Shown one piece after another: positions 10,627-43,452 of a stretch of DNA of 64,000 nucleotides. Each line of letters opens with the position of its first letter. The stretch's first letter is position 1. The notes beneath the pieces are model-generated. The model was given only the letters and a program-made list of their open reading frames with translations, had not been told where the DNA came from and made no database searches. Position numbers and translations under genes: made by a program. The DNA comes from Blastococcus colisei (GTDB lineage: Bacteria; Actinomycetota; Actinomycetes; Mycobacteriales; Geodermatophilaceae). Where the stretch lies: positions 682,001 to 746,000 of the forward strand of contig NZ_VFQE01000002.1 in the NCBI RefSeq assembly GCF_006717095.1, read 5' to 3'.

Positions 10627-11557
10627 GCTTTCCGTCCTCCTTGTCACCTACAACAGTGGCCGCCATATCGACGCCTGCCTCGAGTCACTCCTGCAGGCAC
10701 TCGACGGCATCGACAGCGAGATCCTGGTGCACGACAACGGCTCCACCGATGACACCCTCGATCGTCTCCGTCGCTATCCCCAAGCGGCGGTGGAGGAGGG
10801 CACAACGAACCTGGGATTCGCGGCCGCATGCAACCTGCTGGGTCAGCGCAGCCGTGGCCGCTACCTCTGGTTCCTGAATCCCGACACGAAGGTTCACGCA
10901 GCGGCGGCCAGGAGACTCGTCGAAGCGGCCGACCAGCGACCGGATGCTGGCCTCTACGGAGCCCGGACGATCACACCCGGGGGGCGGACCGTGATGGCGA
11001 GTGCTCAAGGTCGGATGACACTCTGGTCGCTGATGTGCTTTGCCACCGGGATGACGACCCTTGCGCCCTCTCGGCGCTGGTCGGACCCGGAGAGCATGCC
11101 GGGGTGGGATCGGCTGACATCGCGCCCCGTCCCGGCGCTTAGTGGCGGCGCGCTGATGGTCGGGCGCGATGCTTGGCTGCGTCTCGGCGGCTTCGATAGC
11201 CGATACTTCATGTATGCCGAGGACATCGACCTGTGCCAGCGAGCACGGCGAGCAGGTTTCCTCCCATACTTCGTGTCGGAAGCCATCGTGGAGCACGAAG
11301 TCGGTGGCTCCTCTTCCGCCGGCGGCAAGCTGGTGTTGCTCCACCGGGGCAAGGTCACATTTCTAAAAAAGCTGTGGCCGCCGTGGCAGGCGTACATCGG
11401 AGTTCACCTACTGCTCGCCGGAGTTGCTCTACGGGCCGCAGCAAGTCGTGTCGGCCTCTTCCCCGAGTCACCCGGCCGTTCTTCGGGATCGGCCTGGCAG
11501 GAGGCTTGGCGTCGCCGTGATGAGTGGCGCCTGGGCTGGGAGGGCGCGGCAGAGTAG
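10619..11557 (+). CDS. Glycosyltransferase family 2 (rhamnosyltransferase-like)
   Basis: 312 residues resembling WbbL/RfbF-type GT2 enzymes. Visible motifs are LSVLLVTYNSGRHIDACLES, VHDNGSTDDTLD, NLGFAAACN, the metal-binding WFLNPDTKV, GGALMVGRDAW and GGFDSRYFMYAEDIDLCQR, the hallmark ED region of this subgroup. It starts 8 nt inside the preceding glycosyltransferase gene and ends in TAG, one of several genes here that use UAG as an ordinary stop. It should extend the lipid-linked EPS repeat unit in the cytoplasm. Confidence 0.9.
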   Translation: MPELSVLLVTYNSGRHIDACLESLLQALDGIDSEILVHDNGSTDDTLDRLRRYPQAAVEEGTTNLGFAAACNLLGQRSRGRYLWFLNPDTKVHAAAARRLVEAADQRPDAGLYGARTITPGGRTVMASAQGRMTLWSLMCFATGMTTLAPSRRWSDPESMPGWDRLTSRPVPALSGGALMVGRDAWLRLGGFDSRYFMYAEDIDLCQRARRAGFLPYFVSEAIVEHEVGGSSSAGGKLVLLHRGKVTFLKKLWPPWQAYIGVHLLLAGVALRAAASRVGLFPESPGRSSGSAWQEAWRRRDEWRLGWEGAAE

Positions 11558-23811: not shown

Positions 23812-24456
23812 GTGGACGTATTGCAGGTGTGGCGAGCGCTCGTGCGGCGTTGGCGCTTGGCGCTGCCTCTAGTTTTTCTTGCATTGGCTACAGCGTTATT
23901 TGTGCGCGGAGGCGTAGAACCCGGCTATACGGCCAACGCTAGCGTCATCGTCCTGCCGCCCAGCGAGGCCCGAATAAATACGGAATCTGGCGTGCAGACG
24001 GTTCCGGTGAACCCCCTCCTGGGGTCTTCGTCATCGACGCAACTCGCCGCGCAGGTGTTGGCCATTTTGGCCCAGGAGCCTGAGTTTCGACAGCAGGCGA
24101 TGGCCGACGAGTCCCTCGCGGCCTATTCCGTTGAGACCGCCACCCGCAGTCCGATTCTCAACATATCGATCGAGTCGAAGGATCCATTAGAAGCTACCGG
24201 CGCAACACAACGTGTCATCGAACAGATGTCCGCCAACCTTGATAAGCAACAGGAAGCAGTTCAGGCCGATCAACGCCTCGGGATACAGGTTCTCTCACAG
24301 CCCGCAATCTCCAGTGTAGACAACTCTCAGCTGCGCGCCTTCGTGGCGACTCTAGCAATCGGACTGCTTCTCACGGTCGCGGTCACGGTTCTCTTCGATG
24401 GCGTCACTGGTCGCCGCAAGCGGCATGCGGATCAAAGGGTCAGAGGCAGCCAGTAG
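23812..24456 (+). CDS. Wzz/YveK-like chain-length determinant protein
   Basis: 214 residues with transmembrane helices near both ends (about residues 17-33 and 180-200) and an extracytoplasmic, partly coiled-coil middle (AQVLAILAQEPEFRQQ, ATQRVIEQMSANLDKQQEAV), the layout of polysaccharide co-polymerases. No cytoplasmic tyrosine-kinase domain is fused and none is nearby. It would set polymer length together with the adjacent Wzy-like protein. The GTG has AAGGG 6 nt upstream. The gene ends in TAG and opens the A/T-richer block. Confidence 0.82.
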   Translation: MDVLQVWRALVRRWRLALPLVFLALATALFVRGGVEPGYTANASVIVLPPSEARINTESGVQTVPVNPLLGSSSSTQLAAQVLAILAQEPEFRQQAMADESLAAYSVETATRSPILNISIESKDPLEATGATQRVIEQMSANLDKQQEAVQADQRLGIQVLSQPAISSVDNSQLRAFVATLAIGLLLTVAVTVLFDGVTGRRKRHADQRVRGSQ

Positions 24457-37434: not shown

Positions 37435-38490
37435 TCAGCGAACGACCGAGCGAGTCTCTCCGTCGCGGACGGCCTTGCCGGCTTCACGGGCGGCCATGCG
37501 CTCGCGCTGCGGAACGACCGTGTACTTCGGGTCCCGCGCGCTGGCCATGCCAGCGTCGAAGACGCCGAAGCGGGTGAGCAGCGAGCCGGCAGCCAGTAGC
37601 GTTCCTGACGCAATAGCGCCTAGCCGGTTGCGCCCGGCGACCACCGTCAGCCCGGCGCCCGCAGCGGTGCACGTGCGGGCCGCACGCATGAGCTTCCCAG
37701 CGCGTCCCTCGTGATAGGGCTCCGAGACGATGCTGTCGTCGTTCTCCACCTGGTGCACGACGGTCAGTTCGATGGCGGCACCTGCGACTGCCATCTTGCG
37801 TGCAGGCCCTGCCTCGTCGACGGGCGTGAACGCCATGCAGATCCCGCCCCCCGCCGCCATCGCCGAGCCGGCGAAGACGAACGGCAGCTTGCCGTGGAAC
37901 TCGTGCCACGACGGCACAGCCGTGTTCGACAGCAGCACCGCGGTGTAGGTGGCCATCGGCCCGCCGAACACGGCAGCCACGATGCCGCCGAAGCGCTTGA
38001 GGCGCGGGAACCAGCCCAGCAGCTCCACGGCGGCCGTCGCGGCAGTCGCGGCGCTGAACGGCGACAGGATGTAGGTGCCCACCGACAGCGGCGACGTCGG
38101 CTTGAACACCCGCAGCATGTGCAGGAACCGCTCCGGACGGCCCAGGTCGTGGATCAGCCACCCGACCGACGCCATCGAGCCGACGCCGGCGGTCACCCGG
38201 GCGACCTTCGTCAGCGCCGGCCGGCCGGTGAGGTCGGCCATGGCACCCAGCACCGATGAGGTGCCGGCCGCTCCCCCGAGGAACAGGTACAGCGGCACGT
38301 CCGGCGTCTTCCACACCGGCGGCTTGATGATCGGCCGGTCGTAGTACGAGGTGAACTCGGCGTCGTCGACCATCGCGACCTCGCCGGCCGCCCGCCGGCC
38401 GCTGCGTCGGCCGTTCTTCTTCCGCTTCTGGCTGGTCCAGCCGTCCGCGCGGCGCCAGCCGGCCCCCGGGGTGGCGATTCCCTCGGTCAT
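37435..38490 (-). CDS. nrfD: NrfD/PsrC-type membrane subunit of formate dehydrogenase
   Basis: 351 residues. A basic N-terminal tail (to about residue 40) precedes about eight predicted transmembrane helices of the NrfD family (VPLYLFLGGAAGTSSVLGAM, GWLIHDLGRPERFLHMLRVF, SPLSVGTYILSPFSA). These proteins anchor molybdo-oxidoreductases and exchange electrons with quinones without haem. The ATG has GGAGGA 7 nt upstream and lies 3 nt beyond the stop of the Fe-S subunit gene, so the two are co-transcribed. It replaces the cytochrome b subunit of enterobacterial formate dehydrogenase N. Confidence 0.85.
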   Translation of the reverse strand: MTEGIATPGAGWRRADGWTSQKRKKNGRRSGRRAAGEVAMVDDAEFTSYYDRPIIKPPVWKTPDVPLYLFLGGAAGTSSVLGAMADLTGRPALTKVARVTAGVGSMASVGWLIHDLGRPERFLHMLRVFKPTSPLSVGTYILSPFSAATAATAAVELLGWFPRLKRFGGIVAAVFGGPMATYTAVLLSNTAVPSWHEFHGKLPFVFAGSAMAAGGGICMAFTPVDEAGPARKMAVAGAAIELTVVHQVENDDSIVSEPYHEGRAGKLMRAARTCTAAGAGLTVVAGRNRLGAIASGTLLAAGSLLTRFGVFDAGMASARDPKYTVVPQRERMAAREAGKAVRDGETRSVVR

Positions 38491-38492
38491 GC

Positions 38493-39551
38493 TCACTTCC
38501 TCCGCGAGCCGAGGATCGCCGTCAGCGCGACCCCGACGATCATCGCGGCGCCGGTGGCCGCCGCCTTCCACATGGCCGGCAGGTCCCGGGTGGTCACGAT
38601 CGGGTCCGGCGGCAGGCCGTAGACCTCCGGCTCGTCGAGCAGCAGGAAGAAGGCCCCCGCTCCCCCGACGCCGTCGTTCTCGTCCCGGCCGTACAGCCGC
38701 GCCGTCTCCACGCCCTGCGACTGCAGGGTCGCCAGCCGGGCGTCGGCGCGTGCCTGCAGTTCGTCGAGGTCACCGAACTGGATGGACTGCGTGGGGCACG
38801 CGGTGGCGCACGCCGGCTGCAGGCCGTCGGTCAGCCGGTCGTAGCACATCGTGCACTTGAAGACCCGGCCGTCGTCCTTGCGCTGGTCGATGACCCCGTA
38901 GGGGCAAGCGGGCACGCAGTAGCCGCAGCCGTTGCAGATGTCCTGCTGCACCACGACGGTGCCGAACTCGGTGCGGAACAGCGCACCGGTCGGGCAGACG
39001 TCGAGACACCCGGCGTGGGTGCAGTGCTTGCAGACGTCCGAGGACATCAGCCAGCGGATCTCCCGGTCACCGGACTGCGACGTCTGGGGGTCGAACTCCG
39101 CGAGCGCCTCCGCGTTCAGCACGCTGGCCTGGGCCTTGGCCGTGCTGTCGGCGTCGGCGGGGTTCGGCAGCGGCATCTCCGGTCGCCCGGAAGCGCCGGG
39201 CAGGCCGACCGCGGGCATCGGCAGGTCGACGGTGCGCGCCTGCTCGACGAAGGCCACGTGCCGCCAGGAGTTGGCGCCGAGCATGCCGGTGTTGTCATAC
39301 GACATCCCCGACAGCCCGAGGGCGTCGCGCGTGCCGTCCGCGTCGTCCATCGGGAGCGTGTTCCACTCCTTGCAGGCCACCTCGCAGGCCTTGCAGCCGA
39401 TGCACACCGACGTGTCGGTGAAGAAGCCGACCCGCTTGGGGTGCTCCTCGGTGTAGCCGGCCTCGGCCGACACGTCGGGCAGCGGCCCGAACAGCCGGTT
39501 CTTCGGATCGTTGCCGCTCAGGGCCGGGCTGGCCGAGCTCACCGTGGTCAT
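38493..39551 (-). CDS. Formate dehydrogenase iron-sulfur (beta) subunit
   Basis: 352 residues with four ferredoxin-type cysteine clusters: CIGCKACEVACKEWN; CKHCTHAGCLDVCPTGAL; CNGCGYCVPACPYGV with KCTMCYDRL; and PACATACPTQSI. The C-terminus carries a predicted helix (AAATGAAMIVGVALTAILG), as in FdnH-type subunits that anchor to the membrane. It passes electrons from the molybdenum/selenium subunit to the NrfD-type protein. The alpha-subunit gene is upstream on the same strand, but a toxin-antitoxin pair on the opposite strand separates them by 634 bp, so this gene probably needs its own promoter. Confidence 0.92.
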   Translation of the reverse strand: MTTVSSASPALSGNDPKNRLFGPLPDVSAEAGYTEEHPKRVGFFTDTSVCIGCKACEVACKEWNTLPMDDADGTRDALGLSGMSYDNTGMLGANSWRHVAFVEQARTVDLPMPAVGLPGASGRPEMPLPNPADADSTAKAQASVLNAEALAEFDPQTSQSGDREIRWLMSSDVCKHCTHAGCLDVCPTGALFRTEFGTVVVQQDICNGCGYCVPACPYGVIDQRKDDGRVFKCTMCYDRLTDGLQPACATACPTQSIQFGDLDELQARADARLATLQSQGVETARLYGRDENDGVGGAGAFFLLLDEPEVYGLPPDPIVTTRDLPAMWKAAATGAAMIVGVALTAILGSRRK

Positions 39552-39596
39552 GCCCGCTCCTTGAACGCGTCGTCATACCCGGTCATACTTCTGGTC

Positions 39597-39842
39597 GTGA
39601 AGACAGCCATCTCCATCCCCGACGACACGTTCGCGGAGGTCGAGCGCCGCGCCAAAGAACTGGGGCTCAACCGTTCCCAGTTCTTCACGCGGGCAGTCCA
39701 GCGGTACCTCGCCGATCTCGAGTCCGAGTCGATCACAGCCCAGATCGACGCGGCCCTGGAGGCTGCCGGGGAAGACGACTCCAACGCCTGGGCCGCCGCC
39801 GCAGGACGGCGGATGCTTGCGCGCACGGACGACGACTGGTGA
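39597..39842 (+). CDS. MazE-like ribbon-helix-helix antitoxin
   Basis: 81 residues starting at a GTG: KTAISIPDDTFAEVERRAKE begins an RHH DNA-binding domain, followed by LGLNRSQFFTRAVQRYL and an acidic C-terminal tail (EAAGEDDSNAWAAA) that would neutralise the toxin. The stop overlaps the toxin start by GTGA. The gene lies within the formate dehydrogenase locus but on the opposite strand, divergent from the Fe-S subunit gene (45 bp apart). Confidence 0.85.
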   Translation: MKTAISIPDDTFAEVERRAKELGLNRSQFFTRAVQRYLADLESESITAQIDAALEAAGEDDSNAWAAAAGRRMLARTDDDW

Positions 39843-40180
39843 TCGAACGGGGGGCCATCCACTGGGCCGACCTCGGTGAGCCGGTAGGCAGCCGACCGGC
39901 GGGTCGACGCCCGGTCGTGGTCGTGCAGGCAGACACCTACACCCGCACCCGGTTGTCCACCGTGGTGATCGCGGCCATCACGTCGAACCTCGGACTGGCG
40001 TCCGCGCGCGGCAACGTCTTTCTTCCGGCCTCGGAGAGCGGACTCGCTCGCGACTCCGTGGTCAACGTGACCGCGGTGGCAGCAATCGACCGTCGCGAGA
40101 TCGAGGCACGCGTGGGCACCGTGCCGTTGTGGACGATGCAGAGAGTCGACGCGGGGCTGCGACTCGTGCTCGGACTCTGA
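39839..40180 (+). CDS. MazF/PemK-like mRNA interferase toxin
   Basis: 113 residues. The fold's landmarks are GAIHWADLGEP near the start, RRPVVVVQADTYTRTRLSTVVIAAITSN with the conserved R-P-V-V-V core and T-S-N, and SVVNVTAVAAIDRREI. MazF toxins cut single-stranded mRNA at short motifs. It is coupled to the antitoxin gene and converges on the formate dehydrogenase alpha gene, with 5 bp between the two stops. Confidence 0.88.
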   Translation: MIERGAIHWADLGEPVGSRPAGRRPVVVVQADTYTRTRLSTVVIAAITSNLGLASARGNVFLPASESGLARDSVVNVTAVAAIDRREIEARVGTVPLWTMQRVDAGLRLVLGL

Positions 40181-40185
40181 GCGCA

Positions 40186-43100
40186 TCAGGTCTCCACCGG
40201 GGCCCGGCCACCCACGGGCACCATGCCGGACTGCATGCCCGCCCGGGTGCGGTACCCCTCGAGGAACTCCACGAGCTCCGGCCCGCGCGGGCGCCGGCCG
40301 GGCCGGATGTCGCAGGTGGCGGCCTTGCTCTCCTGGATGTGGGTGTTGGAGTCCATCACCACGCCGAGCAGGTCGTTGGCCGAGTCGCCGGTGGAGATCC
40401 CGCGCTCACCCCAGTGGTACGGAATGCCGATCTGGTGGATGACCTTGCCGCCCTTGAGCTTCAGCGGCCGCATGCGCTCGGTCACCAGCACGCGCGCCTC
40501 CACGGCCGCCCGGCCGCTGACGACCGTCGCCCAGCCGCCGTTCTCCAGGCCGCGTTCGGCGGCCAGTTGCGGGCTGACCTCCACGAAGAACTCCGGCTGC
40601 AGCTCCGCGAGGTAGGGCAGCGTGCGGCTCATCCCGCCGGCGGTGTGGTGCTCGGTCAACCGGTAGGTGGTGAACACGTACGGGAAGACGTCGCTGGCCA
40701 TGGTGTTCGCCCGGTTCCACGGCGCCCGGATCTCCTCGCGGGCCGGGTTGGCCTGCACGCCGTACAGCGCGTTCTCCACCGGGGACTCTCCCGGCTCGTA
40801 GTGCGTGGGCAGCGGCCCGTCGGTCAGCCCCTTGGGCGCGTACAGCCAGGCCTTGCCGTCGCTCTGCATGACGAACGGGTCGGCGCCGCCGATCGCAGCC
40901 TGCGCCTTGGCGCCGTCCGGGGGCACGTAGCTGGGCGGCTTGGTGGCCTCGAAGTCCGGCACGTCACCGGTCGACGTCCAGCGGCCAGCGGCTTCGTCCC
41001 ACCAGACGTACTTCTTGCGCTCGCTCCACGGCTTGCCCTCGGGGTCGGCCGAGGCGCGGTTGTAGAGGACGCGCCGGTTCAGCGGCCACGCCCAGCCCCA
41101 CTCGGGCGCCACCTCGTTCTGCTCCTGGCGCGGCTTGCGGCGACGGGCCTGGTTCACCCCGTCGGCGTAGACGCCGGTGTAGATCCAGCAGCCGCCGCTC
41201 GTCGAGCCGTCGTCCTTCATCTCCATGTAGCTCGACAGCAGCTCGCCGTCGGGGCCCACGCCGTTGATCTCGCGCAGGACCGCGTCGGCGCTGGGCTCGT
41301 CGTCGGGCCCGTGCGTCGGGTAGTCCCAGGTGAGGTCGAGCAGCGGCCGGTCGCGGGGGTCGGTGGAGTCCTTCAGCCGCTCCCGGAGCATCCGGCCGAG
41401 GTGGAAGTAGAACCACAGGTCGCTCTTGGCGTCGCCCGGCGGCTCGACCGCCTTGTCGCGCCACTGCAGCATCCGCTGGGTCTGGGTGAAGGTGCCTTCC
41501 TTCTCGACGTGCGTGGCGGCGGGCATGAAGAAGACCTCGGTGGCGATCTGGTCGGTGACCAGCTCGCCGGTCTCGATCTCCGGCCCGTCCTGCCAGAAGG
41601 TGGCCGACTCGATGAACTGCAGGTCGCGGACGACGAGCCACTCGAGGTTGGCCAGCCCGAAACGCTGCATGCGCCCGTTGGCGTGCCCGACCGTCGGGTT
41701 CTCCCCCACCAGGAAGTAACCGGGGACCTTGCCCTCGATCATGTCGCTGATCGTGCGGTAGGAGCTGTGGTCGCCGTTGATCCGCGGCAGGTAGTCGAAG
41801 GCGAAGTCGTTCTCCGCCGTCGCCGCGTCGCCCCACCAGGCCTTGAGCAGGCTGACCATGTAGGCGCGCTTGTTGCCCCAGAAGCCGCCGGCGCCCTCGG
41901 CGTCGGCGACGTAGTCGTGCAGCGTCGCGTGCTCGTCGGCGTGCGGCATCGGCAGGTAGCCGGGCAGCAGGTTGAACAGCGTCGGGATGTCGGTGGAGCC
42001 CTGGATGCTCGCGTGCCCGCGCAACGCCAGGATCCCGCCGCCGGGGCGGCCCATGTTGCCCAGCAGCGCCTGCAGGATCGACGCCGTCCGGATGTACTGC
42101 GCGCCGACGGTGTGCTGCGTCCAGCCGACCGAATACACCCAGGCCGTCGTCCGCTCGCGGTTGCTGTTCGCCGTCACCCACTCGGCGACCTTGAGGAACA
42201 CCTCCGGTTCGATGCCGCAGACCTCGCTCACCATCTCCGGCGTGTAGCGGGAGTAGTGCCGCTTGAGGACCTGGAACACCGTCCGCGGGTCGTGCAGCGT
42301 CTCGTCGCGCTTGGGCTTGGCCGCCAGCGGCGGGCCACCGGAACCGGCGGCGTGGGCCTGGTCGGCGCGCTTCACCGACTCCTGCTGGGAGAGCTCCTCC
42401 TGCTCGTGGGCCTCGGCCGGGTCGTCCAGCGAGGTGGTCGACGGCTCGGTCTCGAACTGCCAGCTCTCCTGGTCGTAGATCCGGTTTTCCGGGTCGTAGC
42501 CGGAGAACAGGCCGTCGAGGTCCTCGGTGTCCTGGAAGTCCTCGCGCACCAGCGCCGCGGCGTTGGTGTAGGCGACCACGTACTCCTTGAAGTACAGATC
42601 GTTGTCCAGGACGTGCTTGATCAGCCCGCCGAGGAACGCGATGTCACTGCCCGCGCGCAGCGGCACGTGCAGGTCGGCGATCGCGCTGGTGCGGGTGAAC
42701 CGCGGGTCGATGTGGATGACCTTCGCGCCGCGCGCCTTGGCCTCGGTCACCCACTGGAAGCCCACCGGGTGGCACTCGGCCATGTTCGAACCCTCGATGA
42801 CGATGCAGTCGGAGTTCGCGAGGTCCTGCTGGGTGTTCGTGGCACCGCCACGACCGAACGAGGCGCCCAGACCGGGCACCGTGGAGGAGTGCTATATGCG
42901 GGCCTGGTTCTCGATCTGGATAGCGCCCATGGCGCTGTAGAGCTTCTTCATGAGGTAGTTCTCCTCGTTGTCGAGGGTCGCCCCTCCGAGGCTCGCTATC
43001 CCCATCGTGCGCTTGACGGACTTGCCGCCGTCCTCGTCCTGCCAGGTCTTGCGGCGGGCGTCGAGGACGCGGTCGGCGATCATCTCCATCGCCGTGTCGA

Positions 43101-43452
43101 GGTCGAGGTCCTCCCACTCCGTCCCGTACGGACGGCGGTACTTGACCGTGGTGACCCGGCTGGGGCTGGTGACCAGCTGCTTGCTGGCGCTGCCCTTGGG
43201 GCAGAGCCGGCCGCGGTTGACCGGTGAATCGGGGTTGCCCTCGATCTGGACGATCTTCTCGTCTTTCACGTAGACGTTCTGCGCGCAGCCGACGGCGCAG
43301 AACGGGCACACGCTCTTCACGACGCGGTCGGCGGTCGCGGTGCGGGACACGGTGGCATCGGTCGCCTTGCTGCGCGCGGCCTTGCCGCGGCCCAAGGGAT
43401 CCGTGCCGGTCAGCTGCCGGTACACCGGCCAAGCGTCGAGCCAGGTCTTCAC
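40186..43452 (-). CDS. fdnG: Formate dehydrogenase alpha subunit, selenoprotein with UAG-encoded selenocysteine
   Basis: About 1088 residues if the in-frame TAG at 42892-42894 is read as selenocysteine (residue 187). The first part has the 4Fe-4S motif CPFCAVGCAQNVYV plus RGRLCPKG and leads into IASLGGATLDNEENYLMKKL and IENQARI. The stop codon sits exactly where FdnG-type enzymes have Sec. The second part resumes HSSTVPGLGASFGRGGATN, then SDCIVIEGSNMAECHP and the Mo-bis-MGD domains. A SECIS-like hairpin follows the codon. It oxidises formate to CO2 and passes electrons to the Fe-S and NrfD subunits. Start GTG 43452 (VKTWLDAWPVYRQLTG); a GTG at 43488 is possible. Read conventionally it would look like two genes. 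Confidence 0.9.
42862..42894 (-). promoter_or_regulatory. UAG selenocysteine codon plus bacterial SECIS hairpin
   Basis: Reading the minus strand, TAG (42894-42892) is followed by 11 nt, then a 7-bp stem GGTGCCC/GGGCGCC (one U-G pair) enclosing the loop GGTCT (42880-42862). From memory, the Escherichia coli fdhF element has the same 11-nt spacing, a stem of similar size and the same GGUCU apical loop recognised by SelB. The U opposite G in the lower stem could serve as the bulged U. The hairpin lies inside coding sequence, as usual in bacteria. Confidence 0.88.

Follow-up and report, generated by a model that had tools for sequence, protein, structure and literature searches.

A probable UAG-encoded selenocysteine in a formate dehydrogenase of Blastococcus colisei, and the distribution of this codon in Geodermatophilaceae

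The use of UAG to program selenocysteine (Sec) in Geodermatophilaceae was reportedly established by Mukai et al. in 2016, with 75Se labelling said to have been done in Geodermatophilus and Blastococcus. Section 17 of Santesmasses et al. 2017 (PMC5330540), which credits Mukai 2016 for UAG-Sec, describes three genomes of this family that combine a CUA tRNASec with TAG codons in UGSC proteins, formate dehydrogenases and a single AhpC, and passages of PMC10778597 and PMC8124441 mention UAG as a Sec codon in some species. The main text of the reviews PMC13188914 and PMC9312934 holds no mention of "Geodermatophil", and searching open-licence papers by title and abstract yielded no other treatment of UAG-Sec or tRNASec in Geodermatophilaceae, Geodermatophilus or Blastococcus. 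Two further systems are close. The canonical UGA system (selABCD, SECIS) uses the same kinds of protein factors, and pyrrolysine coding likewise combines the amber codon with a CUA tRNA.

Here, we describe a locus in a 64,000-nucleotide stretch of Blastococcus colisei DNA (the window). It shares with the known Geodermatophilaceae system the CUA tRNASec, the TAG in formate dehydrogenase and UGSC genes, and the bacterial family itself; given this agreement with section 17 of PMC5330540, which also bears out the mention of UAG-Sec in Geodermatophilus and Blastococcus in the initial annotation, the case belongs to a known kind. Compared with that section, our data concern another species, show the CUA pattern in 101 of 112 family genomes where the section reports three genomes, and add the boundary to UGA users and the sister genera with UCA. 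In the open-licence papers examined we met no family-wide count, no AUA context before UAG, no account of the five codon changes and no strain with two tRNASec genes. The locus departs from the canonical UGA system in its UAG codon, its CUA anticodon and a C-G pair in place of U-A closing the anticodon stem, and from pyrrolysine coding in having a Sec-type tRNA within a sel cluster, a hairpin-linked use of the codon, and UAG as a stop elsewhere. A change of Sec codon over most of a bacterial family represents a natural experiment on how the genetic code moves.

The fdhA gene and its in-frame UAG

We consider it very likely (probability roughly 0.96) that the product of fdhA in the window is a formate dehydrogenase alpha subunit whose residue 187 (counted from 43452) is Sec, the UAG being decoded through a CUA tRNASec. 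This sequence-based reading draws on the codon, its conservation, the tRNA anticodon, the sel genes and a hairpin with covariation, all computed here; Sec in the protein itself would be expected from the known bacterial Sec pathway. The features of the locus are as follows.

42895..43452, minus strand: fdhA, part 5' of the Sec codon; the frame is open from 43488, and the start was placed with the help of the genome's other copy
42895..42897, minus strand: ATA (Ile) codon immediately 5' of the Sec codon, invariant over the 52 family genes read
42892..42894, minus strand: TAG, very probably read as selenocysteine; TAG in 52/52 family FdhA sites read
42862..42880, minus strand: SECIS-like hairpin of 7 bp with loop GGUCU (42873-42869), the loop starting 18 nt past the Sec codon
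40186..42891, minus strand: fdhA, part 3' of the Sec codon; same frame, profile match
38493..39551, minus strand: fdhB-like iron-sulfur (4Fe-4S) subunit; best model TIGR01582, 180.3 bits against a cut-off of 334.7 that is not reached
37435..38571, minus strand: NrfD-like membrane subunit; PF03916, 38.4 bits against a cut-off of 25.8, start uncertain

The minus-strand reading frame, open from GTG 43488, reaches TAG at 42894-42892 and continues in the same frame to TGA at 40188-40186. With the TAG read as U, it forms a single frame of 1100 residues (1088 counted from 43452), in which the Sec site reads ...ENQARI-U-HSSTVPGLG.... A second fdhA in the genome starts with ATG (protein MKTWLDAWP...), making GTG 43452 the likelier start of the window gene. 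The full-length protein scored 1948.6 bits against the NCBIfam model of actinobacterial formate dehydrogenase alpha (NF041513, curated cut-off 1400) and 955.9 bits against TIGR01553 (cut-off 814.2). Frame and profile scores thus uphold the earlier observation that both FdhA halves lie in one frame with TAG exactly at the Sec site (QARI-stop-HSST). Ordinary gene calling splits such UAG-bearing formate dehydrogenases.

The window copy might be a little-used spare, the working enzyme being encoded by the second fdhA at C1:2061659. In the second cluster fdhB directly follows fdhA, unlike in the window, where the pair is split by toxin-antitoxin-like genes, and the mere existence of two copies also speaks for this possibility. 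We nevertheless regard it as unlikely, as the window copy contains no stop besides the TAG and the C1 copy has TAG at the identical Sec site. Because both copies carry the same TAG, recoding is needed whichever copy works. The genes lying between fdhA and fdhB in the window are an RHH-type and a PemK/MazF-like frame on the plus strand (39594-40180).

UAG also retains its stop meaning in the window, as the initial annotation held: the genes ending at 11557, 13100, 14292, 19247 and 24456 all stop with TAG. Four of them match Pfam above cut-off (glycosyltransferase, FrhB/FdhB-like, nucleotidyltransferase, asparagine synthase), and the fifth (23812-24456) has a weak Pfam match to Wzz (20 bits against a cut-off of 25.5). 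A crude call of 23 window genes, which misses these five, has 18 ending in TGA and five in TAG, one of these TAGs being the Sec codon itself. UAG would thus carry a double meaning, ending ordinary genes and very probably encoding Sec in fdhA, and what tells the two apart is likely the hairpin after the fdhA UAG.

Selenocysteine machinery, hairpin and codon context

The host genome (5.16 Mb, 4 contigs) groups SelB, SelA, tRNASec and SelD genes at C1:3452978-3457162. SelA (417.5 bits), SelB (271.5 bits) and SelD (387.8 bits) each exceeded their cut-offs, and the tRNASec, with anticodon CTA (CUA), matched RF01852 at 66.4 bits (gathering score 47). The genome check proposed at the outset, for selA, selB, selD and a tRNASec with anticodon CUA, therefore found every component. 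ARAGORN labels this tRNA "Pyl", presumably owing to the CUA anticodon, which is a warning that the key tRNA of a UAG-Sec system gets mislabelled.

Taken at face value, that label would favor reading of the UAG as pyrrolysine, whose codon it is, or by an ordinary amber suppressor tRNA. We find this scarcely credible. The very short variable arm that characterizes tRNAPyl according to PMC7609411 is not seen in the host CUA tRNA, whose variable arm is long. This tRNA reaches 66.4 bits with the tRNASec model, adjoins selA and selD, and is similar to the UCA tRNASec found in sister genera; moreover, every one of the 30 homologues read from other families has TGA as the codon. Decoding as Sec remains our preferred reading, and it is further supported by the relatives' codon (see below).

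The host genome also contains two UGSC-family genes with one in-frame TAG apiece.

C1:2356057: UGSC gene 1; 143.5 bits, cut-off 125; TAG read at the codon (L279)
C2:802693: UGSC gene 2; 124.7 bits, just below the curated cut-off of 125; one in-frame TAG

Across 30 family loci fetched, the UGSC motif had TAG in 22, Cys (TGC) in eight and TGA in none.

By analogy with the known bacterial Sec pathway, SerRS would charge the CUA tRNASec with serine, which SelA would turn into Sec with selenophosphate supplied by SelD. SelB, bound to the hairpin just downstream, would then insert Sec at the fdhA UAG in competition with release factor 1, and UAG codons lacking the hairpin would stay stops.

The stem of the hairpin is formed by positions 12-18 and 24-30, counted from the codon, and the loop occupies 19-23. 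The same GGUCU loop, at an equal distance from the codon, is found in the E. coli fdhF hairpin, and FdhA genes of other families in the order, which belong to the canonical UGA system, share this hairpin design and its spacing from the codon. Over 82 FdhA genes the loop was GGTCT in 69, AGTCT in eight and AGTTT in five. The structure thus shows the traits of a bacterial SECIS: a hairpin right after the Sec codon, a conserved GU-bearing loop and a covarying stem. In 64 unique sequences, standard pairs filled 425 of 448 stem cells (shuffle mean 388.5) and both-sided changes numbered 34 (shuffle mean 12.0); no shuffle out of 500 reached either the observed paired cells or the both-sided changes, the shuffles ignoring the relatedness of the sequences. 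Sliding the partner strand by 1 to 3 lowered the paired cells to 151-280 and the both-sided changes to between 0 and 24. Third bases were fixed at codons +6 (Pro, C in 82/82), +7 (T in 69/69 Gly) and +8 (Leu, G in 82/82). The extra pair types (7) were not unusual, being reached by 363 of 500 shuffles, nor was hairpin stability above that of shuffles (z = -0.58; 49 of 200 folded equally well or better), and pair 12-30 fails in many UGA genes.

Directly upstream of the codon, ATA precedes TAG in 52/52 family FdhA genes, where it makes up 34 of the 2019 other Ile codons. The codon before TGA in 30 FdhA genes of other families was ATT in 23, ATA in five, ATC in one and GTT in one. In the 22 TAG-bearing UGSC loci the preceding codon is GAT (13) or GAC (9), which rules out ATA before UAG as a general selenoprotein rule. 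On the tree, the ATA context offers five independent pairs only, of which 3.5 go the same way and none the opposite (median p = 0.125). Our guess is that this context may weaken termination at UAG.

Distribution and history of the UAG spelling

We surveyed 112 Geodermatophilaceae genomes for FdhA (match threshold E 1e-50) and found a match in 101. For 98 of these, a match covers query residue 199 and holds an in-frame TAG; G033, G079 and G096 gave no spanning match. The TAG was located exactly in fetched loci only: the Sec site was found in 52 of the 55 loci examined, and it was TAG in every one. It did not appear in L219, and L102 and L103, both from G079, miss the Sec segment. A further stop lies inside some family FdhA rows (G030, G043, G060, G093, G098). 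As a side observation, both FdhA copies of G079 (taken as Modestobacter sp. Leaf380) lack the Sec segment and change frame there, which reflects either two broken copies or an assembly fault.

Under the standard code the TAG splits the open reading frame, as a nonsense mutation from UGA to UAG would do in a dead gene. We hold this explanation to be extremely improbable: the stop is not private to one strain, recurring at every family site read, and most family rows have no other stop within the match; third positions are fixed in the hairpin loop and inner stem; and a matching CUA tRNASec is present. Conservation of the codon over 9 of 12 genus clusters does not fit a loss-of-function point mutation, and a UAG common to most of the relatives examined indicates a fixed change of spelling instead of a broken gene. 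The codon comparison in relatives that the initial annotation had proposed hence came out on the side of Sec.

The CUA tRNASec pattern occurred in 101 of 112 family genomes, 99 of which have both the pattern and an FdhA match. It was absent from 11, namely G066-G074 (from clusters g5-g7) and two incomplete genomes, G097 and G098, which have a TAG FdhA although the CUA pattern was not found in them. G066-G074 gave no FdhA match. A tRNASec with UCA was present in G066, G068-G070 and G072-G074, which span these three genus-level clusters, and none was found with strict filters in G067 and G071. The 30 family tRNASec loci fetched comprised 22 CUA and eight UCA genes, one of the latter being an extra gene in G058 (see below). 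In the tRNAs compared, C-G closes the anticodon stem of the CUA type, whereas U-A does so in the UCA type.

An order-wide survey (397 genomes drawn, threshold E 1e-150) gave 269 genomes with an FdhA match; among the best-scoring rows listed, the 70 from other families all had TGA and none TAG, and the 30 of them that were read had TGA at the exact Sec site (30/30). Scanning the genome collection for the CUA tRNASec pattern produced 93 stretches, 80 of them listed, a set that may leave out records closest to the window's genome. ARAGORN placed a CTA-anticodon tRNA in 78 of these 80; L116 lacks one and L189 is cut at a contig end. Two stretches that might have represented UAG-Sec beyond the family were rejected, L116 (a Syntrophales MAG) because it has no Rfam match and L172 (an Erysipelotrichaceae MAG) because it scores as an ordinary tRNA. 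L131 (titled Jatrophihabitans MAG) and L157 (titled Frankiales) score as tRNASec and have sel genes resembling those of the family, to which they may belong. Separately, the L172 tRNA (2782-2868) has a CUA anticodon and a long variable arm, scores 57.9 bits as ordinary tRNA and is perhaps a natural amber suppressor, and L122, titled Bacillus sp. AZ43, carries the family's CUA tRNASec under a title that looks wrong.

A quick, unrooted FdhA tree of 82 proteins (52 TAG, 30 TGA; L219 and G079 left out) needs five changes of the codon label, each of them required by branches supported at 95 or more, compared with 24.7 changes on average for shuffled labels. Forcing the TAG rows into one clade costs 819 log-likelihood units and is rejected (p = 4.6e-29). 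Divergent family copies therefore stand apart from the main clade; they are those of G104, of G038 with G057, of G001, and of G032, G052, G092, G097 and G098. Either these copies were acquired from UGA users and then re-spelled, or the ancestor already had several old copies at the time of the anticodon change. At each change the FdhA codon matches the host anticodon; reading of the codon as Sec predicts this match, which a dead gene could hardly account for.

The SelA tree (76 rows, unrooted and quick, with several genomes entered twice and one row without anticodon) separates 70 CUA rows from five UCA rows (four genomes) by one branch with support of 100; one UCA row sits on a long branch. 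Judging from the trees, the anticodon would most simply have gone from UCA to CUA once in the family, with the Sec genes carrying the matching UAG; a single change suffices on the SelA tree but is not proven by it. One tRNA change is thus enough on that tree, and FdhA genes of distinct lineages have the matching spelling.

A candidate strain with two selenocysteine codons

One genome, G058 (taken as Geodermatophilus sp. LHW52908), may use both codons. Our tentative proposal from sequence, which we put at somewhat below even odds, is that it reads UAG (in FdhA and UGSC, through a CUA tRNASec) as well as UGA, through a UCA tRNASec that would have arrived on a GC-poor stretch with an AhpD-like gene, with a single host set of selA, selB and selD working for both; in other members of the family, the FdhA of several lineages would have been re-spelled from UGA to UAG, the gene following the host anticodon. 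Such a strain would test directly whether one SelB runs two Sec codons per cell.

The CUA tRNASec of G058 has selA, selB and selD adjoining. Its UGSC gene has TAG (L284), and an in-frame TAG lies within its FdhA match. The second tRNASec (anticodon UCA, 81.8 bits) lies with the AhpD-like gene on contig C17 (L090:1169-2157), on which the host selA, selB and selD gave no hit. The CMD/AhpD-like gene (PF02627) starts about 300 bases from this tRNA and has an in-frame TGA at the second Cys of its CxxC motif (NRCFY-TGA-MESH). CxxU AhpD-like selenoproteins figure in the list given in the review PMC13188914. Searching 396 genomes of the phylum for relatives at E 1e-25 or better returned six matches, each with one in-frame TGA, all six at the same place. 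In one of them, L301 (genome G540), a UCA tRNASec lies about 1 kb from the gene, an arrangement like that of G058. The other 71 AhpD-like matches in the family contain no stop, and the 19 that were read all have Cys at that place.

GC content is 59-65% over L090:1001-6000, compared with 69-77% in the other L090 windows. These observations are consistent with joint acquisition of the AhpD-like gene and the UCA tRNASec, as a unit supplying its own tRNA, and an assembly fault could also account for the second tRNASec. The AhpD-like protein had no relative in viral contigs or phage records; against plasmid records it had 333 matches, all below 60% identity. Judged by eye, transposase-like frames surround the stretch holding the UCA tRNASec and the AhpD-like gene.
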